DNA from: Vicingus serpentipes | GTDB lineage: Bacteria > Bacteroidota > Bacteroidia > Flavobacteriales_E > Vicingaceae | Direction of reading: 5' to 3' | Length of the DNA stretch: 64,000 bases | Assembly: GCF_007993035.1 (NCBI RefSeq) | Contig: NZ_VOOS01000003.1 | Coordinates: 461,501-525,500 of the forward strand | Shown: one piece after another, positions 8,986-64,000 of the stretch | How positions within the stretch are numbered: position 1 is the first letter of the stretch | Layout of the letters: each line of letters starts with the position of its first letter | The notes under the pieces: model-generated | What the model was told of the DNA's origin: nothing | Database searches by the model: none | Seen by the model: the letters and a program-made list of their open reading frames with translations, nothing else | Translations under genes and position numbers: made by a program

Positions 8986-8995
8986 TTTAACTTAA

Positions 8996-9024: not shown

Positions 9025-9060
9025 AGATGATTAATATATAAAATGCTTTAAATCAAACAT

Positions 9061-11745: not shown

Positions 11746-11761
11746 TTAAAGCATAACAAAT

Positions 11762-11791
11762 AAAAAAGGCAGCTATATAGCTGCCTTTTTT
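11762..11791. terminator. Bidirectional intrinsic terminator
   Basis: AAAAAAGGCAGCTA / TAGCTGCCTTTTTT palindrome between two convergent genes; A-run and T-run on both flanks serve both strands. Confidence 0.9.
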
Positions 11792-11816
11792 ATTTGTTAA
11801 TTATTTTTCTTTCTTT

Positions 11817-12869
11817 CTAGGATTTTGTATAAATAGTTTGAGTGGGGAATGCCATTTCTAAACCTTTAGCATTAAATTGTTTTAAAATTTCTAAGTTAAT
11901 TTCTGTTTGGGTTTGAAGAATATCTCCTTCCTTTTTAATGTAATAGATAAAAAGAATTCCTAAAGAAAAATCACCAAAGGCATTAAAAGAAACTAAAAAA
12001 TTGTTTTCAACATTTTCGTTAGTTGCTGCAATTTCTTTTAATAAAGAAATGCCTTGTTCTACTTGTTCAGCAGTAGTATCGTAAATTAATCCAATATTTA
12101 AAATTACTTTCCTAGTTGGTTCAGCTGTAACATTTTCAACCATATTACCTATAAACTGAGAGTTAGGAATTGTTACTAATCTTCCTTCAAGGGTTCTCAT
12201 TCTACTAATTCTAATTCCAATTTCTTCTATAGAGCCATCAAAACCTCCAATTTTAATTCTATCTCCTACCTTAAAAGGTTTGTCGGTAAAAATCATAATA
12301 CCGCCAAAAATGTTGGATACAGAGTCTTTTGCAGCCATAGCTAATGCTAACCCTCCAATTCCTAAACCAGCGATTAAAGCTCCAACATCATAACCAGCAT
12401 TATTTAGAGCGACAATTACTCCCAAAATCCATATTATAGATCTTAATCCTTTCTGAACAATAGGCATTATTTGGTCGTCTAAATCACTTTCAGTTTTTTC
12501 GGTTAATGGAACAATGTATTCCTCTATAATTGCATCTACCAATCGAGCAATTAACCATGTAATATTAATTGCAATTAAGATGTGATAAACTTTTCCCATC
12601 CAAGCATACCAAAAATCAGTAAATTCTAATCGGTTTAATCCATACCATAAGCCAAAAATTGTAATTGCTAAGACAATAGGTTCTTCTATCATGTCAACAA
12701 TTATATCGTCAATTTTTGTTTTTGTTTTGCTCGTAAGTTTTTTTACTATTTTACCAAAAAACCAGTATACAATTTTACCTATAATTACAGCTCCAAGTAT
12801 TATAAGAAAGGTAATAGACCAATCACCAACGGTGTTGTAATAAAATTCTTTTGCTAAAAAATCTTCCAT
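11817..12869 (-). CDS. MscS family small-conductance mechanosensitive channel
   Basis: 350 residues from the ATG at 12869. The frame extends to a TTG at 12887, but that codon lies inside a TAnnTTTG -7 element, so it is unlikely. Inner-membrane channel that releases ions on membrane stretch. Visible: an N-terminal membrane segment, further helices around residues 60-140, then the MscS pore helix and beta domain (GGLALAMAAKDSVSNIFGG, followed by FTDKPFKVGDRI), and a cytoplasmic alpha/beta C-terminal domain. Convergent with the upstream PKD gene and closed by a shared terminator. Bacteroidota usually carry several paralogues; exact gating type cannot be told. Confidence 0.92.
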   Translation of the reverse strand: MEDFLAKEFYYNTVGDWSITFLIILGAVIIGKIVYWFFGKIVKKLTSKTKTKIDDIIVDMIEEPIVLAITIFGLWYGLNRLEFTDFWYAWMGKVYHILIAINITWLIARLVDAIIEEYIVPLTEKTESDLDDQIMPIVQKGLRSIIWILGVIVALNNAGYDVGALIAGLGIGGLALAMAAKDSVSNIFGGIMIFTDKPFKVGDRIKIGGFDGSIEEIGIRISRMRTLEGRLVTIPNSQFIGNMVENVTAEPTRKVILNIGLIYDTTAEQVEQGISLLKEIAATNENVENNFLVSFNAFGDFSLGILFIYYIKKEGDILQTQTEINLEILKQFNAKGLEMAFPTQTIYTKS

Positions 12870-12884
12870 AATTATATTTTTCTT

Positions 12885-12892
12885 CAAAGTTA
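12885..12892 (-). promoter_or_regulatory. Candidate -7 element for MscS gene
   Basis: TAACTTTG on the minus strand, about 16 nt before the ATG at 12869; it predicts a leader of only about 10 nt. Confidence 0.4.
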
Positions 12893-12909
12893 GTAAAATC
12901 AGAAAAAAA

Positions 12910-13152
12910 CTAAATTTTTGATTTTATTGTTTCAAATTCTTTTTCAGATGAAATTTCCCAGTAGGGTTCAAAATCACTAATCATATCTGAAATGAAGTTG
13001 AAATCAGGTAAAATGTTTGCTGTAAAGTGATGAATTTCAGCTTTATCTTTTAATAATTTAACCTCCTCAAATTCAGTTTTGGAAATAATTTTAAAAAATG
13101 ATTTTTCATTTTTATATTTTCTGAAGATTGGGAAAATATTGTTTGAGTTCAT
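12910..13152 (-). CDS. Small protein of unknown function
   Basis: 80 residues from the ATG at 13152; the longer frame to 13203 begins with TTG and its extra residues look like translated intergenic DNA. The protein is charged and soluble, without signal peptide, membrane helix or cysteine clusters. It has the alternating short strand/helix look of a small alpha/beta fold (FFKIISKTEFEEV, YWEISSEKEFETI: two similar aromatic-Ile-Ser-x-x-EFE segments, a possible internal repeat). I do not recognise the family. It sits upstream of mscS on the same strand (gap about 40 bp) and divergent from guaB. Confidence 0.6.
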   Translation of the reverse strand: MNSNNIFPIFRKYKNEKSFFKIISKTEFEEVKLLKDKAEIHHFTANILPDFNFISDMISDFEPYWEISSEKEFETIKSKI

Positions 13153-13264
13153 AAAAGTAAAATTACAATAAACTTTAGATGTTGAAGTTACAATGATTAA
13201 CAAATTTTAACGTGTTGAAATGAACTATTTTTAGTACTTTCGCCTCAATTTTTAGAAAGCAATT

Positions 13265-14737
13265 ATGAGTGAATTATCAGATAAATTTATAGGAGAAGGA
13301 TTAACTTATGATGATGTTTTAATGGCACCATCTTATTCAGAAGTTTTACCTAGAGATGTTGATATCTCAACACAATTTACAAAAAAAATAAGGTTGAATA
13401 TTCCTGTGGTTTCTGCTGCAATGGATACTGTAACAGAATCTAAACTAGCAATAGCTATTGCTCAGGAAGGAGGAATAGGTGTTTTACACAAAAACATGAC
13501 TATTGCAGAACAAGCTGACAAAGTTAGAAAAGTAAAACGTTCAGAAAGTGGAATGATTCAAGACCCTGTTACAATTTCTGTTGATTCAAATGTAGGAGAC
13601 GCATTAAAACTAATGAGTGAATTTAAAATTGGAGGCATACCAGTTGTTGATTCAGAAAATAATTTAGTTGGAATTGTAACAAATAGAGATTTAAGATTCC
13701 AGAAAGTTATGACAACTCCTGTTAGAGATGTTATGACTAGTAATAATATTATAACTGCAGTTGAAGGAACAGATTTAGATAAAGCAAGAGAGATATTGCA
13801 ACAACATAAAATTGAGAAATTACCAGTAGTTGATGCCAATAATAAGTTAAAAGGTTTAATTACATACAAAGACATTACTAAGGTACAATTGAAACCTAAT
13901 GCTTGTAAGGATACTTATGGAAGATTAAGAGTTGCTGCTGGTGTTGGTGTAACTGCAGATATTATGGATAGAGTAGATGCACTTTATAAAGCAGGAGTCG
14001 ACGCTATAGTAATTGATACTGCTCATGGTCATTCGAAAGGAGTGATAGATACATTAAAAAAAGTTAAATCAGTTTATCCTGATTTACAAGTTGTTGTTGG
14101 TAATATAGCAACTACACAAGCGGCTAAAGATTTAGCTGATGCTGGTGCAGACGCAGTAAAAGTTGGTATTGGTCCAGGTTCTATATGTACAACTAGAATA
14201 ATCGCTGGTGTTGGTGTGCCTCAATTATCTGCGGTTATGATGGTAGCTGAAGGGTTAAAAGGAACAGATGTTCCATTAATTGCAGATGGTGGAATTCGCT
14301 TTACAGGAGATATTGTTAAAGCATTATCTGGAGGAGCAGATTCAATTATGGCTGGTTCTTTGTTTGCAGGTGTAGATGAGTCTCCAGGAGAAGCTATTAT
14401 TTACGAAGGAAGAAAATTTAAGGCATACAGAGGAATGGGGTCAATTGAAGCAATGCAAAAAGGTTCAAAAGATAGGTATTTTCAAGATGCTGAAGATGAT
14501 ATCAGTAAATTGGTTCCTGAAGGAATTTCGGGAAGAGTACCTTATAAAGGGTTTTTAAGTGAAGTTATTTACCAGATGGTAGGAGGTTTGAGAGCTGGAA
14601 TGGGATATTGTGGGGCACGTAATTTAGAAGAATTAAAAAATGCAAAATTTGTAAGAATAACAAGTGCAGGATTTACAGAGAGTCATCCACATAATATTAC
14701 AATTACAAGAGAAGCACCTAATTATTCAAGACGTTAA
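13265..14737 (+). CDS. guaB: Inosine-5'-monophosphate dehydrogenase
   Basis: 490 residues, usual length. It oxidises IMP to XMP with NAD, the committing step of GMP synthesis, in the cytoplasm as a tetramer. Visible: N-terminal barrel start ([21 protein letters not shown]), two CBS domains (about 95-205), the catalytic loop [10 protein letters not shown] with the nucleophile Cys at residue 308, the IADGGIR phosphate-binding stretch and a flap with [22 protein letters not shown] pair about 25-50 nt upstream resembles a weak -33/-7 promoter. It is followed after 39 bp by a parvulin gene with no terminator seen, so read-through is likely. Confidence 0.98.
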
Positions 14738-14776
14738 AATTTTATTATTTATATAATTATAAAAAGGTAAAGTATT

Positions 14777-16759
14777 ATGAGAAAAATAAGTTTATTACTA
14801 TTAATTGCACTAACATCATTTTTAGCAAAAGCTCAAGATAATGATCCTATTTTATTAACCATAAAAGATAAAAATGTTTTATTGTCTGAGTTCAATGCCA
14901 TATTTAAAAAGAACAATACGAAAGACACTAAAATAACTGAAGAGTCAGTTAAAGAATATTTAGACTTATACATTAAATTTAAACTTAAAGTAACTGAAGC
15001 TGAAGAGTTAGGTTATGATACGACTGCTGCTTTCATAAAAGAATTGGAAGGATATCGAAAGCAATTAATTCAACCATACTTATCGGATAGAGAAGTGACA
15101 GAAGGATTAATAAAAGAAGCTTACGAAAGAATGAAATTTGATGTAAATGCCAGTCATATTTTATTTAATGTTGGGGCTGATGCATTACCTAAAGATACTT
15201 TAGCAGCCTATAATTTAGCTTTAAAAGCTAAACAAAGAATAATGAAAGGAGAGTCTTTTGAAAAAGTTGCAGAAGAAATGTCTTCTGATCCTTCAGCAAA
15301 AACTAATAAAGGAAATTTAGGTTATTTTTCAGCTCTTCATATGGTTTATCCTTTTGAAACGGCAACGTATAATTTAAAAGTTGGTGAAATTTCAAATCCT
15401 GTTAGAACAAGGTTTGGTTATCATATTATTAAATTAAATGATAAGCGACAAGCAAGAGGAACAATTAGAGTTGCTCATATTATGCTTCAGTGTGCAAAAG
15501 ATGCCACCGAAGAAAAAGTGAAAGAGCAAGAGACTAAAATAAATGAGATTTATTCAAAACTTAAAGAAGATCCTAGTCAGTTTAAAGCATTAGCTAAACA
15601 ATATTCTGATGATAAAAATTCAGGTTCAAGAGGTGGTGAATTAGCTCCATTTACAGCAGGTAAGATGGTTGCCGAATTTGAAGAATCAGCATTTGCTTTA
15701 ACAGTTGATGGAGCTATTGGTACTCCAATAAGAACAGATTATGGTTTCCACATTATTCAACGTTTAGAATTAATTGAATTGGATTCTTACGAGAATTTAT
15801 ACAATTCATTAAAATCTAAAGTAAGTAGAGATTCAAGAGCAAACAAAAGTAAAGATGTAGTTATTGATAGAATTAAAACTGAAAATAAGTTTGTTGAGAA
15901 TTTATCTGAACGTAACGATTTTTATAAAATTATTTCTGAAGATGATTTATTAAATGGCACTTGGACTGCTGAAAAAGCAAAATCACTAACGAAATTAATG
16001 TTTGGATTCTATGCTGCTGATGGAGATAAAATTGAATTTACTCAAACTGATTTTGCTCAATACTTAGAGCAAAATAAACCAAAAGTTAATCCAAAAAATG
16101 CTCCAAAAGTTGTTGAGTTAGTGAATAAATTATACAGCCAAGTATTGGAAGAAGAAGCACTTAAATTTAAAGAGAATCGTTTACCTAAAACCAATCTAGA
16201 ATATAAATTATTATATCAAGAATATAGAGATGGAATTTTATTATTCGAGTTGACAGATAAAAAAGTTTGGTCTAAAGCAATAAAAGATTCTACAGGTTTA
16301 CAAGCTTTTTATGATAAAAACAAAAATAATTACATGTGGGGAGAGAGAGCTGATGTAACTATTTATAAATGTAGTGATGAAAAAGTAGCGGCTAACTTAG
16401 AAAAAATCTTAAAAAAGAAAGCTAAGAAAGGTTATTCTAATAATGACATTTTAAAAATGGTAAATGTTGATAGTCAATTAGCTTTATCTATTGAGGAGGG
16501 TAAATATGAAAAAGGACAAAATGAATTGGTTGATAAAGTTGAATGGAAAGCAGGTACTACTATTAAAAATGTTGCAGATAAAAATGTAAATATTGTGGTG
16601 ATAAATGAAGTTTTAAAGCCAGAACCTAAGCAGTTAAATGAAGTTAGAGGTTTAGTTACATCAGATTATCAAAATTATTTAGAAAAAGAATGGGTAGAAA
16701 ATCTAAAAAGCAATTATAAGGTTACTGTAAATAATGAAGCTTTAAAACTTGTAAAGTAA
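14777..16759 (+). CDS. Exported peptidylprolyl isomerase, two parvulin domains
   Basis: 660 residues with a signal peptide (MRKISLLLLIALTSFLAKAQ). Periplasmic folding chaperone/prolyl isomerase of the PpiC/SurA type. It has an N-terminal SurA-like helical region (about 30-120), then two PpiC rotamase domains (about 125-225 and 230-335, each with the conserved H-I-L or H-I-M start, GG-(N/E)LG/A and GFHII-type ends), and a long C-terminal part with no clear motif. First of three related genes (14777-19012) that appear to be an outer-membrane biogenesis set. A terminator-like hairpin follows. Confidence 0.92.
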   Translation: MRKISLLLLIALTSFLAKAQDNDPILLTIKDKNVLLSEFNAIFKKNNTKDTKITEESVKEYLDLYIKFKLKVTEAEELGYDTTAAFIKELEGYRKQLIQPYLSDREVTEGLIKEAYERMKFDVNASHILFNVGADALPKDTLAAYNLALKAKQRIMKGESFEKVAEEMSSDPSAKTNKGNLGYFSALHMVYPFETATYNLKVGEISNPVRTRFGYHIIKLNDKRQARGTIRVAHIMLQCAKDATEEKVKEQETKINEIYSKLKEDPSQFKALAKQYSDDKNSGSRGGELAPFTAGKMVAEFEESAFALTVDGAIGTPIRTDYGFHIIQRLELIELDSYENLYNSLKSKVSRDSRANKSKDVVIDRIKTENKFVENLSERNDFYKIISEDDLLNGTWTAEKAKSLTKLMFGFYAADGDKIEFTQTDFAQYLEQNKPKVNPKNAPKVVELVNKLYSQVLEEEALKFKENRLPKTNLEYKLLYQEYRDGILLFELTDKKVWSKAIKDSTGLQAFYDKNKNNYMWGERADVTIYKCSDEKVAANLEKILKKKAKKGYSNNDILKMVNVDSQLALSIEEGKYEKGQNELVDKVEWKAGTTIKNVADKNVNIVVINEVLKPEPKQLNEVRGLVTSDYQNYLEKEWVENLKSNYKVTVNNEALKLVK

Positions 16760-52160: not shown

Positions 52161-53051
52161 ATGATTTCTGTTGTAGTTTGTACTTATAATAGAGAAGTCT
52201 ATTTGCCTAAAATGCTAGAAAGCATTCATTCGCAAATTTGTGAAAAAACTGATTTTGAAATTGTTTTAGTAAATAATAAGTCAACAGATAATACCGAAGA
52301 AATTTGTTTAAATTTTAAAAAAGAAAACCCATCAATTAATTTCAATTATTTCTTAGAAAAAAATCAAGGATTATCATATGCTCGTAATAGAGGTATAAAA
52401 GAATCAAAAGGAGATTTTATCGTTTTTGTAGATGATGATGCTTTTTTAGATGAAAATTATATCAAAGAGTTAGCTGTATATCTAAAAAAATCAGAAGGAG
52501 ATTTAGGTTTTGGAGGTAAAATATTACCATTTTTAGAATGTGAATTACCTGCATGGATGTCTAAATATTTATCTTCATTAATGTCTATTATTGATTTAGG
52601 AAATGAAGTTAAGTTATTTAAAGGATCAAAATATCCTATTGGAGCAAATATGGGAGTATCAAAAGGGGTTATAGATAAGATAGGAATGTTTAACGAATCT
52701 TTAGGACGCACAGGAATATCGATGCTTGGAGGAGAGGAAAAAGACTTTTTTTTTAGAATTAAAGAAGCCGGGATTCCAATTTATTATTACCCAAAAATGT
52801 TAGTTCATCACGTGATTCCAGAAAAAAGGTTAACTGTTGAATTTATTAAAAAACAAGCTGAAGGAATTGGCGTTTCAGAAAAACTAAGAACAAAAAAAAC
52901 TGGCGAGTTTTTAAAACGTTCAATATTGGAGCTTTATAAATGGGGAGGAACATTTGCATTATTTTTTATTTATTTAATAAAGGGACAAGTATCAAAAGGA
53001 GTAATGTTGTTAAAGTTTAGATGGTGGATTAGTAGAGGGTTATGGGGATAG
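52161..53051 (+). CDS. Family 2 glycosyltransferase
   Basis: 296 residues, GT-A fold. N-terminal VVVCTYNREVYLPKMLESI, nucleotide-sugar site FVDDDAF (DxD) near residue 92, LGGEEKDFFFRI (acceptor-side ED motif) and a basic C-terminus with one hydrophobic segment. Transfers one sugar to a growing glycan in the cytoplasm. Starts 4 bp after YfhO and overlaps the flippase start by 10 bp. Confidence 0.92.
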   Translation: MISVVVCTYNREVYLPKMLESIHSQICEKTDFEIVLVNNKSTDNTEEICLNFKKENPSINFNYFLEKNQGLSYARNRGIKESKGDFIVFVDDDAFLDENYIKELAVYLKKSEGDLGFGGKILPFLECELPAWMSKYLSSLMSIIDLGNEVKLFKGSKYPIGANMGVSKGVIDKIGMFNESLGRTGISMLGGEEKDFFFRIKEAGIPIYYYPKMLVHHVIPEKRLTVEFIKKQAEGIGVSEKLRTKKTGEFLKRSILELYKWGGTFALFFIYLIKGQVSKGVMLLKFRWWISRGLWG

Positions 53052-54535
53052 TAATTCGTAAAACCATATCAACATCAATAATTAATTACCTAGGTGTTTT
53101 ACTTGGAGTTGTGAATGTATTGTGGCTTCAAACGGCAATTATTTCTGAACTTCAAATAGGAATTTTGAGTTACGTAGTAGATGTATCGATATTACTTTTG
53201 CCTTTTATTTTATTTGGCACAAGTGGTTTACCAGCTCGTTTTATACATCTTTTTGCAGAAGGAAAAGATAGGAATGAATTTATAAATTTATTGTTTATAA
53301 TACCTCTGATGACAGTTGTTATTACAGCAATTGTTTTCTTCGTTTTTGAGTCTAATTTAATTAAATCGTTGGGTGCTGATGCAGTTACTTACAGTCAATT
53401 TTTAGTATTTATTATTCCTTTAGTATTTTGTTATGCATATCAATATTTGTTAGAAGCGATACTAGCAACTGCCTCTCTAACAGTGTTCTCTGCATTCTTA
53501 AAAAGTATATTTAGAAGAGTAGTACTAATAGCTCTTCTTGTTTGTTTTTCAGTTCAAATATTAAATTTTTATCATTTGGTTTTATTTTATGTGTTTGCAC
53601 ATTTCATTGAAGTACTAGTTCTCTTTTTCTTTTTTAAGAAACATTTAAAATTCAAATTCAGTTTACCAAAATTGAATGTTTCTTCGGAGAAAAAGAAAGA
53701 AATAAAATCTTATGCTTTCTATTTAATAATTGGAGTTAGTGGGGTTGTAATGGTAGGTAAAATTGATTCAGTAATGATTAGTGGAATTACAGATGATTTT
53801 GGACAATTAGGAATATATTCAATAGCCTTTTTTATTGCAACAGTTATAGAGTTGCCTAAGCGAATAGTTCATCAACTAGCATTTCCCATAATGTCAAAAA
53901 ACGTTACTGAAAATAAACAAGAAGAGCTTAGTGAGATGTATAAGCAAACCGGAGTTAATATGTCAATTATAGGTTTGTTTATGTTTTTAATTATTTGGTA
54001 TAATATAGATGAATTATTTTTAATAATACCTAATGGTACTATTTATTCGACAGGAAAATGGGCAGTATTTTTTATAGGGATTTCTAAAGTTTTAGATGTT
54101 ATTTTTGGTACAACTGATTTAATGATAAATGCTACAAAACATTATAAATGGAACGGTGTTTTGATACCTATTTTAATAGGATTAACCTTTATTACAAATT
54201 ACTTTTTTATTAAAGAATATGGAATAGTTGGAGCCGCAATTGCAACAAGTTTAACTGTGTTTGTTTATTCTATAATTAAATATGTTTTAGTGATAATTCG
54301 GTTAAAGATGAATTTAATTTCGATACAACATATTTATATTACCATTACAACAATAATTGTAATAGGTGTGTTTTATATTAAGCCAATATTTTCGGCTAAT
54401 AACTTTATAGAAATTGGCTTGAACAGTTTAATTATTAGTTTTATTTTTATTGGAGGAAATTATATCCTAAAATCATCCAAAGAAATGAACCAGCTTATTG
54501 ATAATAGTTGGAATAAATATATCAGAAAAAAATGA
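53042..54535 (+). CDS. Oligosaccharide flippase (Wzx/MATE-like)
   Basis: 497 residues with about 14 membrane helices and no signal peptide, in the polysaccharide-biosynthesis (MVF/MOP) exporter fold; characteristic are the first helix TISTSIINYLGVLLGVVN, the central charge-poor helices and a C-terminal AAIATSLTVFVYSIIKYV. It moves lipid-linked oligosaccharide across the inner membrane. Overlaps genes on both sides (10 and 4 bp), so part of one tightly coupled transcript. Confidence 0.88.
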   Translation: MGIVIRKTISTSIINYLGVLLGVVNVLWLQTAIISELQIGILSYVVDVSILLLPFILFGTSGLPARFIHLFAEGKDRNEFINLLFIIPLMTVVITAIVFFVFESNLIKSLGADAVTYSQFLVFIIPLVFCYAYQYLLEAILATASLTVFSAFLKSIFRRVVLIALLVCFSVQILNFYHLVLFYVFAHFIEVLVLFFFFKKHLKFKFSLPKLNVSSEKKKEIKSYAFYLIIGVSGVVMVGKIDSVMISGITDDFGQLGIYSIAFFIATVIELPKRIVHQLAFPIMSKNVTENKQEELSEMYKQTGVNMSIIGLFMFLIIWYNIDELFLIIPNGTIYSTGKWAVFFIGISKVLDVIFGTTDLMINATKHYKWNGVLIPILIGLTFITNYFFIKEYGIVGAAIATSLTVFVYSIIKYVLVIIRLKMNLISIQHIYITITTIIVIGVFYIKPIFSANNFIEIGLNSLIISFIFIGGNYILKSSKEMNQLIDNSWNKYIRKK

Positions 54536-55194
54536 AAATTATAGCACTTTTACCTATGAAGGGAAACTCAGAAAGAGTGCCGAATAAAAATCTAAAAGAT
54601 TTTAATGGAAAACCCTTGTTTCATCATGTGCTTGAATCTTTGCAGAATTGCAAATTGGTTGATGAGGTTATAATTAATACAGATAGTGATAAAATTGCCG
54701 ATAGCGCAACTACTTTTTCAAAAGTAAAAATTCATCAACGTCCCCAAGAAATTTGTGGTGATTTTGTTTCTATGAATGAAATTATAAATAACGATCTGGA
54801 TAGATCAGATGGAGATATTTATATTCAAACACATAGCACTAATCCTTTGCTTAAGACAGAGACAATAACTAATGCTATTCAAGAATTTAAAAATTCGGAT
54901 AAAGATTCTTTATTTTCTGTGACAAAACTTCAAACGCGTTTGTATTGGAAAGATGGGAAGCCAGTAAATCACAATCCTAATGAATTAATAAGAACACAAG
55001 ATTTGCCCCCACTTTTTGAAGAAAATTCTAATATCTTTATTTTTACAAAAGAATCTTTTTCTAATTCGGGAAACAAGAGGATTGGGGTAAAACCCTTAAT
55101 GTTTGAAATTGATAAATTAGAAGCAATAGATATTGATGAACCTCAAGATTTTATCTTAGCTGAAACTATTCAAAAACTTAACTTAGTGAAGTAA
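54532..55194 (+). CDS. CMP-sugar-acid type cytidylyltransferase (NeuA-like)
   Basis: 220 residues. N-terminal nucleotide-binding motif LLPMKGNSERVPNKNLKDFNGKPL, close to that of CMP-N-acylneuraminate and CMP-Kdo synthetases, plus IQTHSTNPLLKTETI (the QxTSPL-like motif). It would activate a sugar acid with CTP. Coupled to flippase by ATGA and to the aldolase by a 1-nt overlap. No NeuB or NeuC homologue appears nearby, so the acid is not obviously sialic acid. Confidence 0.88.
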   Translation: MKIIALLPMKGNSERVPNKNLKDFNGKPLFHHVLESLQNCKLVDEVIINTDSDKIADSATTFSKVKIHQRPQEICGDFVSMNEIINNDLDRSDGDIYIQTHSTNPLLKTETITNAIQEFKNSDKDSLFSVTKLQTRLYWKDGKPVNHNPNELIRTQDLPPLFEENSNIFIFTKESFSNSGNKRIGVKPLMFEIDKLEAIDIDEPQDFILAETIQKLNLVK

Positions 55195-55949
55195 TGAACT
55201 TAAAACAAAAAATACGAAATAAACAATTAACCTTAGGTAGTTGGATAACAATTCCAAACCAAGCTGTTATTGAAATAATGGCAACGGCAGGTTTTGATTG
55301 GTTAACGATTGATATTGAGCATTCGGCAGTAAATATAGAAAGTGTCCAAAATTTAATTGGTTTTATTCAAGGCAAAGGAATTAAAGCTTTTGTCAGAGTT
55401 TATGGCAATGATGAAGTAATCATCAAGCGGGTACTAGATGCCGGAGCAGATGGAATTATAGTTCCAATGATTAAGTCTAAACAAGAGGCTCAAGAACTAG
55501 TTAATCATGTTTATTATCCACCATTAGGGAAAAGGGGAGTTGGTTTATCAAGAGCTCAAGATTATGGTCTTGGATTTGATAAATATCAAGAAACGTTAAA
55601 AAATGATGTAGTTGTAATTGCTCAAATAGAGCACATTGATGCAATTAATAACTTAGAGGAAATTCTATCTATAGAAGAGATTGACTCTACTTTAATTGGG
55701 CCTTATGATTTGTCAGCTTCAATGAATAAGCCTGGACAGTATGATTTGCCAGAAGTAAAAGAAGCTATTGCAAAATATGATAAAATTTGTGATGCTTTGA
55801 ATAAACCTAAAGGTGCTCATGTAATTCAATCAGATTATAGTTTTACCCAGTTAAAAATTGATTTAGGTTATACTTTCTTAGCTTTTTCATTAGACTTTTT
55901 CTTTTTGGGAGATAAAGCTAGAGAACAAATGGCATTACTTAAAAAATAG
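55194..55949 (+). CDS. HpcH/HpaI family class II aldolase
   Basis: 251 residues, TIM-barrel class II pyruvate aldolase. Metal/catalytic residues visible: DIEHS (His base near 41), VRVYGND (Arg), AQIEH (Glu ligand) and LIGPYDLSAS (Asp ligand). Such enzymes reversibly join pyruvate to an aldehyde, making 4-hydroxy-2-keto acids. Within a glycan cluster it probably builds or cleaves a keto-deoxy sugar acid. Adjacent starts and stops on both sides show operonic coupling. Confidence 0.9.
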   Translation: MNLKQKIRNKQLTLGSWITIPNQAVIEIMATAGFDWLTIDIEHSAVNIESVQNLIGFIQGKGIKAFVRVYGNDEVIIKRVLDAGADGIIVPMIKSKQEAQELVNHVYYPPLGKRGVGLSRAQDYGLGFDKYQETLKNDVVVIAQIEHIDAINNLEEILSIEEIDSTLIGPYDLSASMNKPGQYDLPEVKEAIAKYDKICDALNKPKGAHVIQSDYSFTQLKIDLGYTFLAFSLDFFFLGDKAREQMALLKK

Positions 55950-56840
55950 ATGAATATGAAGATAGCAGTTTTTGGAGGTACAGGGTTTTTAGGTAGTTAT
56001 TTAGTGACAGAATTGTTAGAACGTGGTTATAATGCATTTGCTCTAGATATTAATGATTCAGAGCATATCCCTTTAGATAAATTTATTAAAACGGACATTT
56101 TAGATGTTCACCATTTAAGTCAACTTTTTGCGGATCATAAATTTGATGTTGTTTATAACTTAGCTGGATTTGCTAGTTTAGAAAAGGCGGTTGAAAACCC
56201 TGTTGCTGCATTTCAGTTAAATGTTATGGGTAATCTTAATCTTATAGATTTATGCGTAAAACATGAAGTGAAGCATTTTGTTTATGCCAGTAGTGCTTAT
56301 GCTATGAGTAGTAAAGGTTCTTTTTATGGTTTATCTAAATTATCTTCAGAAAAGATAGTTGAAGAGTACAAAGAAAAATACAATTTAGATTATACGATTT
56401 TACGTTATGGGTCATTGTATAGTGAAAGAGATTTTGAAAACAATTACATTTTTAATTTAGTTAAAAATGCGATTAAAACTGGAGAAATAAATCATGCAGG
56501 GGATGGAGAAGAGGTAAGGGAATATATTCATGCTTTTGACGCAGCAAAATTATCGGCAGATGTTATAGAAAATGAAGAACATAAAAATAAACATCTAGTA
56601 TTAACTGGTGTAGAACGTATAAAGCGTGGTGAATTATTTAAAATGATTAATGAAATATTGGGTGATACTTTGAAGATCAACCTTTCAGCTGATGGGTATA
56701 AAAATCATTACAAATATACTCCATACAGTTTTACGGCAAAAACTAGTCAGAAATTAACTCCTAATCCTTATGTTGAAATGGGACAAGGACTGTTAGCCTG
56801 CATTCAAGAAGCAAATGAAATATTAAAGGGAGATGAGTAA
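55950..56840 (+). CDS. NAD-dependent sugar epimerase/dehydratase (extended SDR)
   Basis: 296 residues. NAD motif GGTGFLGS, catalytic Ser in YASSAYA and YGLSK (Tyr-x-x-x-Lys). Typical nucleotide-sugar epimerase/dehydratase fold; substrate unresolved. An alternative Met3 start (55956) gives MKIAVFGGTG. Directly abuts the aldolase stop and overlaps the next gene by 8 bp. Confidence 0.9.
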   Translation: MNMKIAVFGGTGFLGSYLVTELLERGYNAFALDINDSEHIPLDKFIKTDILDVHHLSQLFADHKFDVVYNLAGFASLEKAVENPVAAFQLNVMGNLNLIDLCVKHEVKHFVYASSAYAMSSKGSFYGLSKLSSEKIVEEYKEKYNLDYTILRYGSLYSERDFENNYIFNLVKNAIKTGEINHAGDGEEVREYIHAFDAAKLSADVIENEEHKNKHLVLTGVERIKRGELFKMINEILGDTLKINLSADGYKNHYKYTPYSFTAKTSQKLTPNPYVEMGQGLLACIQEANEILKGDE

Positions 56841-57501
56841 AACCTTGTTTTTATCTTACCCATTAAATGATGAAGCCTTTGGTTATGGAAATGGCAATCG
56901 TTTTAAAATTTCTCAAGTAAGAGATATGTGTTGTGGAGATACCAGTAACAATTCTGTTTTTGAAATGCCCACACATTATGGTACTCATATTGATTTTCCT
57001 TATCATTTTTCTATAAATGGAAAAAAATCTACAGACTATCAAGCTAGAGATTTTATATATGATCAAATTGGTATTGTTGAGATTGACTCCGAAAAAGTAG
57101 AAGATTATTTAATCAAAAATAAAAATTTAGAGATAGATCATTTAGATCCCAATATTCAACTTTTATTTATTAAAACAGGTTTCTGTTCTAAACGATATAC
57201 GCCTCAATACTGGGAGTTTGGATTCGGATTTCATCCAGAGACTGCAACTTTTTTAAAACAAAACCTCCCTAATTTAAAAGCGATTGCTTTTGATTTAATT
57301 TCAATGAACTCATTCCAGCAAAGAGAAATAGGAAGAGAAGCCCATAAAGAATATTTAATTGAGAATGATATTTTAATTGTTGAAGAGGTAGACTTATCTC
57401 AAGTATCTTCTCAGACTCAGTTTAATGAAGTAATTATTGCTCCTCTTTTACTTGATAAAGCTGATGGCGCTCCAGTAACTATAATTGCAAAAACAGTATG
57501 A
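56833..57501 (+). CDS. Cyclase family protein (kynurenine formamidase-like fold)
   Basis: 222 residues with the family's metal-binding motif HYGTHIDFPYH (H-x-G-T-H-x-D), and a further H-E-like motif HPETATFL around residue 137. Members hydrolyse amides such as N-formylkynurenine or lactone-like substrates. Among sugar genes it may deacylate or open a cyclic sugar acid; this is inference. Overlaps its neighbours (8 and 4 bp). Confidence 0.85.
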   Translation: MSKTLFLSYPLNDEAFGYGNGNRFKISQVRDMCCGDTSNNSVFEMPTHYGTHIDFPYHFSINGKKSTDYQARDFIYDQIGIVEIDSEKVEDYLIKNKNLEIDHLDPNIQLLFIKTGFCSKRYTPQYWEFGFGFHPETATFLKQNLPNLKAIAFDLISMNSFQQREIGREAHKEYLIENDILIVEEVDLSQVSSQTQFNEVIIAPLLLDKADGAPVTIIAKTV

Positions 57502-58145
57502 TAAAAGCTATATTTTACGATTTTGATGGAGTCATTAAAGAATCTACTGATATAAAATCAAAAGCATTTTATGATTTATATATTGAATTTGGTGAAGCTA
57601 TTGCTAAACAAGTTGAACACTATCATATTGAACATGGAGGTGTTTCTAGATTTGAAAAAATTAGGTATTGGCATAAAACACATTTAAACATTGAAATTTC
57701 AGATAATGAGTTAGAACTTTGGGCTCAAAAATTTTCAGATTTAGTTTTGAAAAAAGTAGTAGAAAGCCCTTATGTAAATGGGGCTTTAAATACAATTACA
57801 AATCTGAGTAAAATTTATAAACAGTATATTATAACAGGAACACCACAAAATGAAATTGAAAAAATCTGTAATGATTTAGAAATCTCACATTTGTTTGAAA
57901 AAATATGCGGTTCTCCCACTAATAAAATAAAATGGTGTAATCAATTAATGCCTGAAATAGGATTAAGTAATAAGGAAATAGTTTTTATTGGAGATGCTAC
58001 TACTGATTATGATGCCGCTAGTTACCATAACTTATATTTTATTTTGAGAGAACATAAAGAAAATGAGCTACTTTTTGCTGATAAAAGTGTTATTAAAATT
58101 AAGGATTTACTAAGTTTGGAATCAGTAATAAAAAAAATAAATTAA
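57498..58145 (+). CDS. HAD family phosphatase (beta-PGM/Gph type)
   Basis: 215 residues. Motif I YDFDGVIKES with nucleophile Asp8 and acid Asp10; motif II in the ITGTPQNEI stretch; motif IV FIGDATTDYDAA. A cap domain is inserted between motifs I and II. Probably dephosphorylates a sugar-acid phosphate in the same pathway. Overlaps the cyclase gene by ATGA and the dehydrogenase gene by 1 base. Confidence 0.88.
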   Translation: MIKAIFYDFDGVIKESTDIKSKAFYDLYIEFGEAIAKQVEHYHIEHGGVSRFEKIRYWHKTHLNIEISDNELELWAQKFSDLVLKKVVESPYVNGALNTITNLSKIYKQYIITGTPQNEIEKICNDLEISHLFEKICGSPTNKIKWCNQLMPEIGLSNKEIVFIGDATTDYDAASYHNLYFILREHKENELLFADKSVIKIKDLLSLESVIKKIN

Positions 58146-59065
58146 TGAGAGTAGCGGTAACATCACCATCATTTTCTAAACATCCTGATTTAATTGCCAA
58201 AATGGGAGAAGAATTTCCTGATGCTAAGTTAAATTTAGAAGGGTTACTTTTTTCTAAAAGTGAACTAGTTGAATATTTAAAAGATTATGATGCCGCAATT
58301 GTTGGTTTAGATGAAATAGATGATGAAGTTTTAAGTCAATTACCACACTTGAAAATTATTGCTAAATATGGTGTTGGATTAAATAACATAGATTTAGAAG
58401 CATGCAAAAAATATAATGTGAAGATCGGTTGGACTGGTGGAGTAAATAGAGTTTCTGTTGCTGAAATGGTCTTAGGAAATGCACTTTCTTTGTTACGTAA
58501 TTTATACCAAACTTCTAATTTACTTAGTGATGGTGTATGGAAAAAAGATGGAGGAGAACAACTTACGGGCAAAACGGTTGGGATTATTGGTGTTGGTTTT
58601 ATTGGTAAGGAATTGATAAAAATGTTAAAACCTTTTAATTGTAAAATATTGGTTAATGATGTGATTAATCAAGATGCGTATTATGCTGAAAATAAATTAA
58701 TAGAAGCATCAAAAGAAGAAATTTTTAAAAATTGTGATGTTATTACAATTCATACCCCTTTAACAATAGAGACAAAGTATATATTAAATAAGCAAGCATT
58801 TGATATGATGAAATCAAATGCTATAATATTAAATACAGCTCGAGGAGGTATAGTGGAAGAAAATGATTTATATTTTGCTTTAACTGAAGGGAAAATTAAG
58901 GCTGCATCACTTGATGTTTATGAAGAAGAACCGCCTACTAATATGAAATTACTAAGTTTACCAAACTTAATTTGCACCCCTCATATTGGAGGGAATGCAA
59001 AAGAAGCTGTTTTAGCTATGGGGATGAGTGCAATTGGCCATTTAATAGATTTTAAAATACAGTGA
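58145..59065 (+). CDS. D-2-hydroxyacid dehydrogenase (SerA-like)
   Basis: 306 residues. Rossmann motif VGIIGVGFIGKEL, catalytic Arg in NTARGGIVEE, Glu in DVYEEEPP and His in CTPHIGGN complete the NAD(H)-dependent 2-hydroxyacid dehydrogenase set; it lacks the ACT domain of long SerA enzymes. It would interconvert a 2-keto and 2-hydroxy acid, fitting with a neighbouring pyruvate aldolase. Overlaps the next start by 4 bp. Confidence 0.92.
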   Translation: MRVAVTSPSFSKHPDLIAKMGEEFPDAKLNLEGLLFSKSELVEYLKDYDAAIVGLDEIDDEVLSQLPHLKIIAKYGVGLNNIDLEACKKYNVKIGWTGGVNRVSVAEMVLGNALSLLRNLYQTSNLLSDGVWKKDGGEQLTGKTVGIIGVGFIGKELIKMLKPFNCKILVNDVINQDAYYAENKLIEASKEEIFKNCDVITIHTPLTIETKYILNKQAFDMMKSNAIILNTARGGIVEENDLYFALTEGKIKAASLDVYEEEPPTNMKLLSLPNLICTPHIGGNAKEAVLAMGMSAIGHLIDFKIQ

Positions 59066-59868
59066 TAACTGATATGTTGAAGAAAAAAATAAAAGAATTA
59101 GTTCCAAATAGCTTGATTGATCAGCCAGGAAAGTTGAGTCGAAGTAAGTATGAAATTGCTAAACTTAAGGATAAATTTAAAGGAAAACGTTGTTTTATTG
59201 TAGGTAATGGTCCTTCTTTAAATAAAATTGATTTAAAACTATTAGAAAACGAGTACAGTTTTGCTGTTAATTCAATTTATTATAAAACCCAAGAAATGGG
59301 CTATAAGCCTAGTTTTTATGTTGTAGAAGACCCTCATGTGATAAATGATAATATCAATGAGATTAATAATTACCAGTGTGATTATATGTTTTTTCCCGCT
59401 AAATTTAAGTCTAAATTTAAAAAGGGAGACAATCGTTATTTTTTGAATTTAGATTATTCTTTTTACAACGACACTAGTCCTTATTTTGAGATACCTAGAT
59501 TTTCTCAAGATTTATCAGAGGAAGCGTTTTGTGGACAATCTGTAACCATTGTGAATTTACAATTAGCCTATTATTTAGGGTTTACAGAAGTTTATTTGAT
59601 TGGAATGGATTTTAGTTATAATATACCAGATAGTGCTAAAGTTGATGGCAATGTAATTGAAAGCACCGAAGATGATGTTAATCATTTTCATCCTGATTAT
59701 TTTGGTAAAGGTAAAAAGTGGCATGATCCTAAATTACATAACGTTTTAAAAAGTTACCGCTTAGCAAGATTAATGTTTGAATTAGATGATAGAAAAGTTA
59801 TAAATGCAACTGTTGGTGGAAATTTAGAAGTATTTAATCGTTTAGATTTCAACTCTTTATTCAAATAA
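59062..59868 (+). CDS. DUF115/GT42-like glycosyltransferase candidate
   Basis: 268 residues; GTG start overlapping the previous stop (GTGA), or ATG at 59074. The core FIVGNGPSLNKIDLKLLENEYSF with CGQSVTIVNLQLAYYLGF and VYLIGMDFSY matches the DUF115 (MptE-like) domain, and, from memory, the arrangement of family 42 sialyltransferases such as Cst-I (AGNGPSL, then S-G-V-type helix, then LCGIDFY). It would accept a CMP-activated sugar. Placed after the CMP-sugar genes, this makes it a candidate transferase of the product. No membrane anchor seen. Confidence 0.75.
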   Translation: MITDMLKKKIKELVPNSLIDQPGKLSRSKYEIAKLKDKFKGKRCFIVGNGPSLNKIDLKLLENEYSFAVNSIYYKTQEMGYKPSFYVVEDPHVINDNINEINNYQCDYMFFPAKFKSKFKKGDNRYFLNLDYSFYNDTSPYFEIPRFSQDLSEEAFCGQSVTIVNLQLAYYLGFTEVYLIGMDFSYNIPDSAKVDGNVIESTEDDVNHFHPDYFGKGKKWHDPKLHNVLKSYRLARLMFELDDRKVINATVGGNLEVFNRLDFNSLFK

Positions 59869-59874
59869 GTTATT

Positions 59875-60651
59875 GTGAAAAGGAAATTGAGTGAAATATT
59901 TTATTTCTTCTTGGCTACAGTTATAAAGTTGAGATTAATATTTTATAAACTTAAAAATTCTAATAAGCCATCTATATTTATTTTTACTGATTCTAGAGGG
60001 TTTGATGTGACTAAAATAACTCATAAATACAATCCTTTCTCTTGGTATACTAAGTATTTTATAAAAAACTATAAAGCAGATGTGTATGTTTGTCCGGAGC
60101 GAACAACAACCGTTTATGATTTTTTGGAATATTATCACAATACAAAAAAACAATACAAATTTGTTTTAGCTCATATAGGTGTAGTAGATTTTGCATCTCG
60201 ACCAATCTCTCAAAATATAGAAATTTTAGAGTCTAAAAAAAGTAAAATTATTGGTTTTTTTGGTGAGGAAATTTATCAAAGACTGATTGATTTTAAAGGC
60301 TACAGTGAAGAATATAATGGTGAGAAAACATCGTCAACAGTCCCTGAATTCATGGTTGAATTGATAGCTACTGAATTTAATAAAATTGAAAATTTAATAT
60401 GGATAAGTTGTAATGATGTTGATTTAAACTGGGTTGGAAATTATAAAAAACGACCTTCTAATTCAGGTATGATTTTAGAAAAAAGTAAAATGATGTTGGC
60501 TTTTTTAAAAAATAGCACAATTTTGGACTTAACAAAGTTGTCATATTCAGAAATACATGAATATACTTGTGATAATGTACATTTAACAAAAAAAGGAAGT
60601 AGATTTATCCTTGATAATTTAAATGAATTAATAGAGAAAAAATACAATTAA
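59875..60651 (+). CDS. SGNH-hydrolase-like protein
   Basis: 258 residues, GTG start at 59875. N-terminal hydrophobic segment (about 8-25), then IFTDSRGF with DSR at 39-41 in place of the GDS block I, WISCNDVD (block III-like N-D) and DNVHLTKKGSRF (block V D-x-x-H). It therefore has the SGNH outline with a non-standard first block. May add or remove O-acyl groups on the glycan. Family membership is my inference from motifs. Confidence 0.65.
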   Translation: MKRKLSEIFYFFLATVIKLRLIFYKLKNSNKPSIFIFTDSRGFDVTKITHKYNPFSWYTKYFIKNYKADVYVCPERTTTVYDFLEYYHNTKKQYKFVLAHIGVVDFASRPISQNIEILESKKSKIIGFFGEEIYQRLIDFKGYSEEYNGEKTSSTVPEFMVELIATEFNKIENLIWISCNDVDLNWVGNYKKRPSNSGMILEKSKMMLAFLKNSTILDLTKLSYSEIHEYTCDNVHLTKKGSRFILDNLNELIEKKYN

Positions 60652-61560
60652 ATGATTGAAAATTACCATAAAGCAATAAAAGAGGCTGTTGAAAGTGATG
60701 GGATTATTACTGATGACGAAGTATTGACTGGTTTTTCTGGGCATAGAATGGTTAGATTGTTACAGAATGTTGCAAAAGCTAGATTAGATCAAAATACTTG
60801 TTATGTTGAGGTTGGAGTTTTTCAAGGATTAACATTGTTGTCAGTGGCAAGAGTTCTAAATAAAGCACAAGTTTATGGGATAGATAATTTTGCTTTTTTT
60901 GATAAAGCAGGTAAAAACTTATCTATTGTTAATGAAAGAACTAAAAAATTAAATCTTAACAACGTAAACATTGTTAATGAAGATTATGAAGATGCTTTAG
61001 AGAATTTAAAAAATCATATAGGAGATAAAAAAGTTGGAGTTTATTTTATAGATGGTCCTCATGATTATAGAAGTCAATTAATGTGTTTAGAATTAATGAA
61101 ACCTTATTTAGCAGATAATGCTATTATTATAGTTGATGATAGTAATTATAGGCATGTAAGACAGGCTAATAGGGATTTTTTATATAACAACAAGGAATAT
61201 AAATTAATGTTCCAGTCATACACAAAATGCCATCCCCTAAATTTAAATGAGAATGATAGAAAAGAAGCTGAAAAAGATTTTTGGGATGGTGTAAACGTAA
61301 TTGTAAAAGACACAGAAAATAAATTAAAAGAAGCATTTCCTCCAACTTATAGAAATAGAAAATTATACGAAATTGAGCATGAACTCCATGCTTCCAAACA
61401 TCCTGATACATTAGTATATTTTTTGCCTATAGCAAATACCTTAGGGGGGCTGGTTAAGAGAATATCAAAGAAAACTTTTTCTAAAGCAGGTAAATTTACT
61501 GCAATGAATACATATAGTGAAAACTTACCTAAAAACGACTTTAATGAATCTTTAAAATAG
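60652..61560 (+). CDS. Class I SAM-dependent methyltransferase
   Basis: 302 residues with the Methyltransf_24/TylF-like pattern: VEVGVFQGLTLLSVA (SAM motif I), YGIDNFAF, VGVYFIDGPHDYRSQL (motif II, metal-binding-type DGxHxY) and IIIVDDSNYRHVRQA. Probably O-methylates a sugar. Starts with no gap after the SGNH-like gene. The C-terminal 80 residues (LHASKHPDTLVYF onward) are additional and basic. Confidence 0.87.
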   Translation: MIENYHKAIKEAVESDGIITDDEVLTGFSGHRMVRLLQNVAKARLDQNTCYVEVGVFQGLTLLSVARVLNKAQVYGIDNFAFFDKAGKNLSIVNERTKKLNLNNVNIVNEDYEDALENLKNHIGDKKVGVYFIDGPHDYRSQLMCLELMKPYLADNAIIIVDDSNYRHVRQANRDFLYNNKEYKLMFQSYTKCHPLNLNENDRKEAEKDFWDGVNVIVKDTENKLKEAFPPTYRNRKLYEIEHELHASKHPDTLVYFLPIANTLGGLVKRISKKTFSKAGKFTAMNTYSENLPKNDFNESLK

Positions 61561-61563: not shown

Positions 61564-62799
61564 ATGAAAACTCCTTGGTATAAAATATTAGGGCCAGGGC
61601 TATTATATGCAGGTGCGGCAATAGGGGTTTCTCATTTGGTTCAATCTACTAGGGCTGGCGCTGATTTTGGGTATGGGTTAGTTTGGGCTATATTAATAGC
61701 TAACTTTTTAAAGTATCCTTTTTTTGAATTTGGTCCTCGATACGCAGCAAGTACTGGTAATAGTTTGCTTTATGGCTATAAAGCTATAGGTAATTGGGCT
61801 TTATATTTATTTATTGCTATCACTTTTATAAGTATGTTTATCATTCAATCTGCAGTTACAGTTGTTACTGCAGGATTGGCTTCTGAAATTTCTGGACTGG
61901 ATATCTCTCCTTGGTTAATGTCAACTATTTTGTTAGCTATCTGTACCTCTATTTTATTAGTAGGAAAATATACTGTTTTAGATAAAGTAATGAAAGTGAT
62001 AATCTTAACGCTTTCAGTTAGCACTATTATTGCTTTAGTAGCTGCATTTACAGGTCATAATGAGCAATATCAAGAATATATGGTTTCATTTACTTTCTCT
62101 GAAAAAAGTCATGTGTTATTTTTAATAGCTTTAATGGGGTGGATGCCTGCTCCGTTTGATATTTCGGTTTGGCATTCACTTTGGACAGCAGAAAAAAATA
62201 ATCATCAAAAAAGTAATTTAAAAGAAGCTTTACTTGATTTTAAAATTGGCTATTGGGGTACAATGATTTTAGCCTTATGTTTTGTTTCCTTAGGAGCAAT
62301 TACAATTTATGGTTCAGGAATTGAATTACAAAATAGTGGAGGAGCTTTTGCCAAACAATTAATAGGTATTTATACTAATAATATTGGGAGTTGTGCTTAT
62401 TTTGTTATAGCAATTGCAGCTTTTACTACTATGTTAAGTACAACAATAACTTGTTTAGATGCTTCTCCTAGGACGTTAACTGAAAGTTGTAATTTAATTA
62501 TTGGTAATGCTAAATACAATAAGAAGTTTTATATTTTATGGATTCTAATACTAGCGATTGGAACAGTATTTATTTTAGCTTTTTATTTAACTAATATGAA
62601 AGCTTTAGTTGATTTCGCAACTACCTTAGCTTTTTTGTCCTCACCAATAATTGCTATTTTAAATTATCTAGTTATTACAGGTAAAACGATGCCTACAGAA
62701 AATAAACCTAGCTTATTATTAAAAGGATTAAGTTGGTTGGGTATAATTTATTTTATTGGGTTTTCTATTTATTTTTTGATTTTAACTAATTCCATTTAA
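61564..62799 (+). CDS. Nramp-family transporter, non-canonical metal site
   Basis: 411 residues with about 11 membrane helices. N-terminus KILGPGLLYAGAAIGVSH aligns with Nramp helix 1, where the canonical DPGN metal-binding motif would be; instead there is AIGVSH. In helix 6 the canonical A-x-x-M motif region is GWMPAPFDIS. Thus a divergent member, perhaps nearer the Nramp-related magnesium transporters. Three bp after the methyltransferase, last of the co-directional series; may be unrelated to the glycan. Confidence 0.85.
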   Translation: MKTPWYKILGPGLLYAGAAIGVSHLVQSTRAGADFGYGLVWAILIANFLKYPFFEFGPRYAASTGNSLLYGYKAIGNWALYLFIAITFISMFIIQSAVTVVTAGLASEISGLDISPWLMSTILLAICTSILLVGKYTVLDKVMKVIILTLSVSTIIALVAAFTGHNEQYQEYMVSFTFSEKSHVLFLIALMGWMPAPFDISVWHSLWTAEKNNHQKSNLKEALLDFKIGYWGTMILALCFVSLGAITIYGSGIELQNSGGAFAKQLIGIYTNNIGSCAYFVIAIAAFTTMLSTTITCLDASPRTLTESCNLIIGNAKYNKKFYILWILILAIGTVFILAFYLTNMKALVDFATTLAFLSSPIIAILNYLVITGKTMPTENKPSLLLKGLSWLGIIYFIGFSIYFLILTNSI

Positions 62800-62848: not shown

Positions 62849-64000
62849 ATGTACCATAAAAATAAACTTCATATAGCTTTTTTTGTGCTGTTAGTATCTT
62901 CCTTTTTAGGAAATATAAGTGCTCAATGTCCTCAGTTGTATGATTTTTTTGGGACACCAAACAATACCCCTTATTGGTATGATTGTACAGGTAATAATTA
63001 TACGTTAACAATCCAATCTCCAAATAATATAGGTAGTTACACTATTGATTGGGGAGATGGCAGCTCTAATAGCACTGGAGGTTCTCTAATTCCACCAGCA
63101 AGTGTAACTCATACATATAATTCGGCTGTAGATACTTTTATTGTGACATTTACTGAAGATACTTCAGGGTGTGTAATTCAAGGGGTTATGGTAATGGAAG
63201 AAGCAACAAGCGCTTCTATTCAAATTCCAATTGGTGGTTTAACTCAAACTTGTGCACCAGCACCTCTAGAATTTATTAATAGTAGTACTAATACATCAGA
63301 AACAACTGTGTTTACATGGGATTTTGGTGATGGAAGTCCTCCAGTAGTTTATGATTATACTAATGTTGGGCAAACAATATCTCACACCTACCAACAAGGA
63401 ACTGTAAATTGTGTTACTCAAGTTACATTAACAGCTGAAAATTACTGTAATACAATTCAAGGAGGAAATAGTATGGCAACATTTAATCCAATAAGAATTT
63501 GGGATATAGATGATGCTGCAATTAATGCTTCTGCAACTGTTTTATGTTATCCAGACACAATTGTTACTTTTCAAAACATTACAAACAGAAATTGTTTAGC
63601 TCAAGGAAATATAGCTCAACGTTATGAATGGTGGAATTTTGGTGATTATTGGGGTAATGGTTATGATTCAATTGTAGGTTGGGTAGCTTGGCCTCCTGCT
63701 AATCCTTATACAATGGCTTATCCTGGAATAGGAAGTTATGATGTAATGATGGTAGATAGTAGTTTTTGTGGATTAGATACAGCATTTATTACAATTCAAA
63801 TTGTTCCTCCTCCATTTGCTGCACTTAATGCGAATAAGGATACAATTTGTGAAGGAGAATCAATAACATTTAGCAACCTTTCTGGAGGTGGAGCAAACGC
63901 ATATTTTTGGAACTTTGGAGATGGAGGAGGCTGGGTTCCATCAGCCGGAGGAGCTGTTAATCATACTTATAATAATGCTGGGGATTTTACGATACAAGTT
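62849..64000 (+). CDS. Large PKD-domain secreted protein, cut by window end
   Basis: Open for 384 codons from ATG 62849 to the right edge. Signal peptide (MYHKNKLHIAFFVLLVSSFLGNISAQ), then at least three PKD-like domains with WGDGSS, WDFGDGSPP, WWNFGDYWG and WNFGDGGG motifs, separated by paired Cys in the same style as the proteins at 3824 and 9061. Probably another T9SS cargo, but its C-terminal domain is not in the window. Repeats here are diverged, unlike the 519-bp units at 6086. Confidence 0.85.
   Translation, partial: MYHKNKLHIAFFVLLVSSFLGNISAQCPQLYDFFGTPNNTPYWYDCTGNNYTLTIQSPNNIGSYTIDWGDGSSNSTGGSLIPPASVTHTYNSAVDTFIVTFTEDTSGCVIQGVMVMEEATSASIQIPIGGLTQTCAPAPLEFINSSTNTSETTVFTWDFGDGSPPVVYDYTNVGQTISHTYQQGTVNCVTQVTLTAENYCNTIQGGNSMATFNPIRIWDIDDAAINASATVLCYPDTIVTFQNITNRNCLAQGNIAQRYEWWNFGDYWGNGYDSIVGWVAWPPANPYTMAYPGIGSYDVMMVDSSFCGLDTAFITIQIVPPPFAALNANKDTICEGESITFSNLSGGGANAYFWNFGDGGGWVPSAGGAVNHTYNNAGDFTIQV

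Follow-up and report, generated by a model that had tools for sequence, protein, structure and literature searches.

How might a bacterium make a cytidine monophosphate (CMP)-activated sugar acid from an operon that carries the activating enzyme and no recognized synthase for the acid? CMP-activated ulosonic acids such as sialic acids, 3-deoxy-d-manno-oct-2-ulosonic acid (Kdo) and pseudaminic acid are generally held to come from phosphoenolpyruvate (PEP)-dependent synthases. The question is raised by a seven-gene operon of Vicingus serpentipes (Bacteroidota), located at positions 54532 to 59868 of the stretch analyzed here (the window; 64,000 nucleotides, positions 461,501 to 525,500 of contig NZ_VOOS01000003.1). 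Neither a NeuB/PseI/LegI synthase nor a KdsA synthase was found in the operon, which is therefore not filed under the NeuB or Kdo pathway. The most likely product of the operon is a CMP-activated 2-keto sugar acid (an ulosonic acid) that is destined for a surface glycan and formed without PEP-dependent NeuB or KdsA. At a probability of about 0.5, it would exemplify a widespread, modular, PEP-independent route in which an oxidative arm (an oxidoreductase, one of three unrelated lactonases and a D-2-hydroxyacid dehydrogenase) and/or an HpcH/HpaI aldolase replaces NeuB or KdsA, yielding acidic sugars that belong to neither the Kdo nor the nonulosonic series, for example, non-3-deoxy 2-keto-aldonic acids.

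Gene content of the operon

An earlier note on this DNA had described seven abutting or overlapping genes and named a domain for each. All seven open reading frames are present on one strand (intergenic gaps, -8 to 0 bp), and Pfam and NCBIfam profiles bear out the domain assignments. The genes, which include a short-chain dehydrogenase/reductase (SDR) and two enzymes of nicotinamide adenine dinucleotide (NAD) type, are as follows:

54532-55194, plus strand: NeuA/PseF-like cytidylyltransferase, predicted to make a CMP-linked sugar acid (PF02348, 1.3e-31)
55194-55949, plus strand: HpcH/HpaI class II aldolase (PF03328, 8.4e-33)
55950-56840, plus strand: extended SDR, a GalE-like oxidoreductase of NAD type (PF01370; D33, Y126xxxK130)
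56833-57501, plus strand: cyclase-family metal hydrolase, putative lactonase (PF04199; HxGTHxDxPxH motif, H48 to H58)
57498-58145, plus strand: HAD-IA phosphatase (PF13419, HAD_2; DxD motif DFDGV)
58145-59065, plus strand: D-2-hydroxyacid dehydrogenase of NAD type, PGDH-like (PF02826/PF00389; 223 bits against the PGDH model, cut-off 454)
59062-59868, plus strand: DUF115 protein predicted to have the fold of glycosyltransferase family 42 (GT42) and Maf, candidate CMP-sugar transferase (PF01973, MptE-like)

No NCBIfam cut-off was passed by any of the seven proteins (for example, 103 versus 205.7 bits for PseF, the best match of the cytidylyltransferase, and 185 versus 368.8 bits for HpaI), so none of them can be called a straightforward ortholog of an enzyme with an established name.

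In the favored reading, the aldolase would form a 2-keto acid from a probably phosphorylated sugar aldehyde and either pyruvate or hydroxypyruvate. The HAD enzyme would remove the phosphate, the NeuA-like enzyme would couple the acid to CMP, and the DUF115 protein would transfer the activated acid. The NAD-linked SDR, the cyclase-type lactonase and the dehydrogenase would form an oxidative arm leading from sugar to lactone, aldonic acid and 2-keto acid; this arm may either supply an aldolase substrate or shape the product. We infer these reactions and their order, and describe below what was seen directly: a conserved gene set, interchangeable parts, intact catalytic motifs and a GT42-type fold. 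That the aldolase builds the 2-keto acid skeleton is, in our estimate, an even bet.

The catalytic motifs of the enzymes are intact. NeuA came first among the PDB matches of the cytidylyltransferase, which in a sequence test scored at most 58 bits against KdsB models with cut-offs of at least 155. Residues H43, R68, E146 and D172 of the aldolase are invariant in 43 relatives; from the roles known for HpaI, we take these to be the catalytic His and Arg and the metal-binding Glu and Asp, respectively. Three further residues (H147, Y171 and H209) are constant in the group of aldolases found in such cassettes and not outside it. The nearest solved structure is that of YfaU/RhmA (5e-37). The SDR retains YxxxK, together with an acidic residue that is typical for the binding of NAD, and its model was closest to GalE TM0509 (Z score, 32.6), a fold search that indicates only a GalE-like protein and does not fix the reaction. 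Within the cyclase motif, H48, T51, H52, D54 and H58 are invariant in 12 sequences. The dehydrogenase matched PGDH in the PDB (3e-47), with glyoxylate reductases and a 2-ketogluconate reductase (8.5e-29) also among its solved relatives.

The DUF115 protein probably begins at the ATG at 59074 rather than at the GTG at 59062, because its relatives begin there. The earlier note had likened it to family 42 sialyltransferases, and both a profile match and the fold of a model agree. A profile of 13 DUF115 relatives found Cst-II first in the PDB (E value, 5e-5). The AlphaFold model (predicted local distance difference test score, 85.9) aligned with Maf at a Z score of 15.3 (200 residues; root mean square deviation [rmsd], 4.3), with Cst-II at 12.7 (187 residues; rmsd, 3.9), and with mammalian sialyltransferases at about 9.7; MptE/HPPK, at 11.9, has the same fold too. 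N207-H208-F209 and Y213 are invariant, but the region of the Cst-II histidine aligns ambiguously. These comparisons make the DUF115 protein a candidate for the transferase of the CMP-sugar.

Conservation and interchange of parts

A scan of genome contigs with the aldolase alone returned 66 loci. Aldolase relatives of at least 44% identity were nearly always accompanied by the other genes of the cassette; those of 29 to 37% identity, mostly alphaproteobacterial and apparently catabolic, had none of the partners. For counting, we applied family profiles and added loci from even genome samples, which gave 61 loci with an aldolase above 250 bits, most of them found via the aldolase alone. A cytidylyltransferase was present in 54 of the 61 (40 NeuA-like and 14 KdsB-like, none with both) and the dehydrogenase in 53, while the SDR and the HAD phosphatase were each present in 46. 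A lactonase was found in 33 loci, of the 6-phosphogluconolactonase type in 20 and of the cyclase type in 13, again never both. Seventeen loci had a YhcH-family gene, usually between the cytidylyltransferase and the aldolase. Some gene absences are due to contig ends (L040 and L041). The DUF115 gene was considered as an essential part of the set and rejected, as only 11 of the 61 loci carry it.

An even sample of 375 genomes from the phylum gave 21 genomes with 22 aldolase places, at least 12 of which adjoin a cytidylyltransferase. A rough binomial estimate for this co-occurrence is about 1e-15; it rests on the assumption that 2% of every genome is near a cytidylyltransferase and serves as an indication only. 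In a tree of 87 aldolases, several rows of which have long branches, the window aldolase fell inside a 50-row clade (support, 100/97). All but two rows of this clade (Omnitrophota, at contig ends) adjoin a cytidylyltransferase. Its members come from Bacteroidota, Ignavibacteriota, Campylobacterota, Bdellovibrionota, Pseudomonadota, Thermodesulfobacteriota, Actinomycetota and Omnitrophota, and most aldolases lacking the gene set, as well as E. coli GarL, lie outside it. Phages yielded only two distant aldolase matches, in unannotated records. The association of these genes across at least eight phyla is real. The earlier note had named failure of the genes to co-occur elsewhere as grounds for doubt, and comparison of gene neighborhoods instead revealed wide co-occurrence.

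Two positions in the cassette are filled by alternative proteins. Mapped on the aldolase tree, each swap (NeuA-like for KdsB-like, cyclase for 6-phosphogluconolactonase) takes five or more changes. The KdsB-like partners of the aldolase pass Kdo-subfamily cut-offs. That the partner can be NeuA-like or of this KdsB-like kind speaks for an ulosonic acid as the type of substrate. Loci lacking the cyclase often have a 6-phosphogluconolactonase instead, mostly placed between the SDR and the HAD phosphatase, and the two replacements tested passed the TIGR01198 6-phosphogluconolactonase cut-off. This exchange between nonhomologous proteins is the best evidence for the proposed opening of a lactone by the cyclase. 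E. coli YhcH is an N-acetylneuraminic acid anomerase and provides the aldolase with its substrate in open form (PMC8141875). The YhcH-family genes in 17 loci also fit the sugar-acid reading.

Several variants of the cassette were also seen. A larger one (L085 at 8590-15500, L043, L127 and L086) combines the dehydrogenase and cytidylyltransferase with an MviM-like oxidoreductase, a SIS isomerase, a FabG-like SDR and a 3-dehydroquinate synthase-like protein (PF01761); its members partly carry YhcH and the cyclase, and the aldolase is mostly present. An inositol-monophosphatase-family protein (L084:7427-8158) lies in a variant cluster with cyclase, YhcH, dehydrogenase and cytidylyltransferase, perhaps as a stand-in for the HAD phosphatase. 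A conserved 359-amino-acid probable lipoprotein lacking a Pfam match (family F27; L013:11986-13062) stands between the HAD phosphatase and the dehydrogenase, or just after the latter, in five Bacteroidota cassettes. Radical-SAM-like cysteine motifs were noticed by eye in proteins inside or beside some cassettes (L010:12892-13938, L036:11439-12335 and L131:3531-4526).

Alternative sources of the acid

A serious rival to the aldolase route, although a tentative one, is an oxidative route. Here the SDR would oxidize an aldose (or aldose phosphate) to a lactone, the hydrolase would open it, the dehydrogenase would oxidize C2, the HAD enzyme would dephosphorylate and the cytidylyltransferase would activate; the aldolase would be secondary, for example, epimerizing or trimming the acid by reversible cleavage. 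Searching from the cytidylyltransferase side revealed operons in which the cytidylyltransferase and dehydrogenase are adjacent without an aldolase (L135, L137, L147, L163, L164, L169 to L171, and the Roseobacter-group plasmids pAge77, p4SUD7 and Gemmobacter p5); loci L145, L146 and L172, from Roseobacter-group plasmids, keep the pair. Several of these operons add a classical SDR, and three add an SMP-30/gluconolactonase (PF08450). Three unrelated lactonase types thus occur across the operons: PF04199, the 6-phosphogluconolactonase type and SMP-30. One locus, L163, is a tight four-gene run of cytidylyltransferase, dehydrogenase, SDR and SMP-30 protein; the top-scoring model for its SDR was that of a glucose 1-dehydrogenase, with a score short of the cut-off. 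An oxidative route from aldose to lactone, aldonate and 2-keto-aldonate explains all four genes there, and an operon aldolase is hardly possible as the source of the acid.

In nearly all loci the phospholactone-type lactonase is accompanied by the HAD phosphatase, which was missing where the SMP-30 type was seen, a pairing that fits phosphorylated and free intermediates, respectively. The NAD-type acidic residue that the SDR shares with the dehydrogenase, and the 2-ketogluconate reductase among the dehydrogenase's relatives, also speak for oxidation. However, this route leaves no clear job for the aldolase, whose catalytic residues stay intact in most loci, and two loci (L131 and L141) have aldolase, cytidylyltransferase and HAD phosphatase with no dehydrogenase nearby. 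Further, the SDR of the window type is GalE-like, and SMP-30 occurs in only three loci. The aldolase-free pairs together with L131 and L141 indicate that either the aldolase or the dehydrogenase can accompany the cytidylyltransferase alone; the window has both.

Five of the aldolase-free loci with the cytidylyltransferase-dehydrogenase pair (L145, L146, L172, L163 and L164) adjoin DUF115 genes, and three have an SMP-30 gluconolactonase. These loci possibly lead to a CMP-activated keto-aldonic acid by oxidation alone.

Several points count against the reading in which the aldolase supplies the acid in the window operon. Since aldolase-free operons keep both cytidylyltransferase and dehydrogenase, the aldolase is not the sole feeder of this cytidylyltransferase. 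Those HpcH/HpaI enzymes whose function is known are catabolic, with a preference for short aldehydes. The SDR most resembles a nucleotide-sugar epimerase, which is at odds with simple aldose oxidation, and many of the 61 loci are close relatives, so that not all are independent. The earlier note had proposed that a pyruvate aldolase makes a keto-deoxy acid that is then dephosphorylated, activated and transferred. Of this, a gene set devoted to a CMP-linked 2-keto sugar acid is supported, the operon itself having no NeuB/PseI. The aldolase is the simplest candidate for the enzyme that makes the keto acid, but the lactonase swap and the aldolase-free operons point to an oxidative module (SDR, lactonase and dehydrogenase) that might form the 2-keto acid by itself.

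It is doubtful that the cytidylyltransferase instead activates an acid other than an ulosonic acid, such as a phosphonate or hydroxy acid, made by the aldolase and dehydrogenase. Relatives in PF02348 do act on other acids, and the dehydrogenase is a constant partner. The KdsB-type replacements above Kdo-subfamily cut-offs, the YhcH-family neighbors and the GT42/Maf-type candidate transferase all favor ulosonic acids, however, and no PEP mutase was recognized among the operon genes with Pfam and NCBIfam profiles.

The V. serpentipes genome (2.9 Mb in 34 contigs, 99.9% complete) was also considered as a source of the acid. The earlier note had called a NeuB/PseI synthase absent, which is true of the operon and not of the genome: one strong NeuB lies on a different contig (C1:782379). 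Nor is it just outside the cluster, where, as the earlier note had said, it would count against the note's proposal. The NeuB locus (C1:781523-784000; L001 and L076) has its own PF02348 cytidylyltransferase, methyltransferase and HAD phosphatase. Its presence would allow the operon merely to tailor and activate a variant of an acid made by NeuB. We consider this improbable, given that the NeuB locus has its own cytidylyltransferase and phosphatase, that Nitrosomonas aestuarii has the cassette with a NeuB-family match of only 33 bits, and that the aldolase, which has no second copy of its type in the genome at an E value of 1e-30, would be superfluous.

Kdo was likewise rejected, as unnecessary, as the operon product. 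KdsA (C3:12926) is encoded some 0.5 Mb away from the operon, and the top cytidylyltransferase match, taken as KdsB, is at C4:284684, so the operon is not needed for Kdo. Action of the operon's cytidylyltransferase on Kdo, which the earlier note had raised against itself, is accordingly disfavored.

Ordinary sugar-acid catabolism placed near glycan genes by chance is very unlikely, even though most HpcH/HpaI aldolases with an established function are catabolic, and a chance neighborhood was rejected: catabolic-type aldolases from the same scan lack nearly all the partners, and a flippase and a glycosyltransferase flank the operon.

Known pathways and glycan setting

In activating the acid, and probably in transferring it, the operon resembles the NeuB and Kdo pathways. 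As in the Kdo pathway (KdsD, KdsA, KdsC and KdsB), a 2-keto acid would be formed, dephosphorylated and CMP activated, and some cassettes have a KdsB-type enzyme; in place of KdsA, the operon has the HpcH/HpaI aldolase, putative lactonase, SDR and hydroxyacid dehydrogenase. With the sialic, pseudaminic and legionaminic acid pathways (NeuB/PseI/LegI plus NeuA/PseF), it shares a NeuA/PseF-like cytidylyltransferase and a candidate transferase of GT42/Maf fold, but it lacks both a PEP-dependent synthase and the uridine diphosphate-N-acetylhexosamine dehydratase/aminotransferase set. The modeled fold of the DUF115 protein is that of GT42 sialyltransferases and Maf glycosyltransferases, yet identity is 16 to 18%, and the fold is shared with MptE/HPPK.

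The aldolase belongs to the same family as HpaI, GarL and YfaU/RhmA and keeps their catalytic residues. Unlike these, it falls in a distinct clade with signature residues and stands beside cytidylyltransferases rather than catabolic genes. Sialic acid catabolism by NanA and YhcH offers a parallel in that 17 related loci pair the aldolase with a YhcH-family anomerase; in contrast, the direction proposed here is the opposite, the aldolase families are unrelated, and no YhcH is present in the window.

A survey of the literature, mostly open, on the gene combination, aldolase-based ulosonic routes, gluconolactonase with cytidylyltransferase, and rare ulosonic acids revealed no description of such a cassette, a weak negative. 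The E. coli K3 capsule reportedly contains 4-deoxy-2-hexulosonic acid, according to a citation in PMC10433991. If the favored reading is true, a second, synthase-free route feeds NeuA- and KdsB-type enzymes and probably places new acidic sugars on many bacterial surfaces. Many genes that now carry no more than the label acylneuraminate cytidylyltransferase, HpcH/HpaI aldolase or DUF115 would gain a concrete function, and glycans of this class would escape a search for NeuB.

Three genes next to the operon bear on its setting:

53042-54535, plus strand: flippase of Wzx type (PF01943), a glycan-export context; its end overlaps the operon (4 bp)
59875-60651, plus strand: protein with no Pfam family; the linkage recurs in the nearest relative, and elsewhere the protein adjoins DUF115-type loci; accessory at most
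60652-61560, plus strand: methyltransferase (PF13578), an accessory gene that the nearest relatives retain

A glycosyltransferase of family GT2 is also encoded upstream. Together, the flippase and GT2 enzyme upstream and the no-family protein and methyltransferase downstream mark a glycan locus. Beyond these genes lie an Nramp transporter (61564-62799) and a PKD-domain protein of surface type (62849-64000) that runs off the end of the window.

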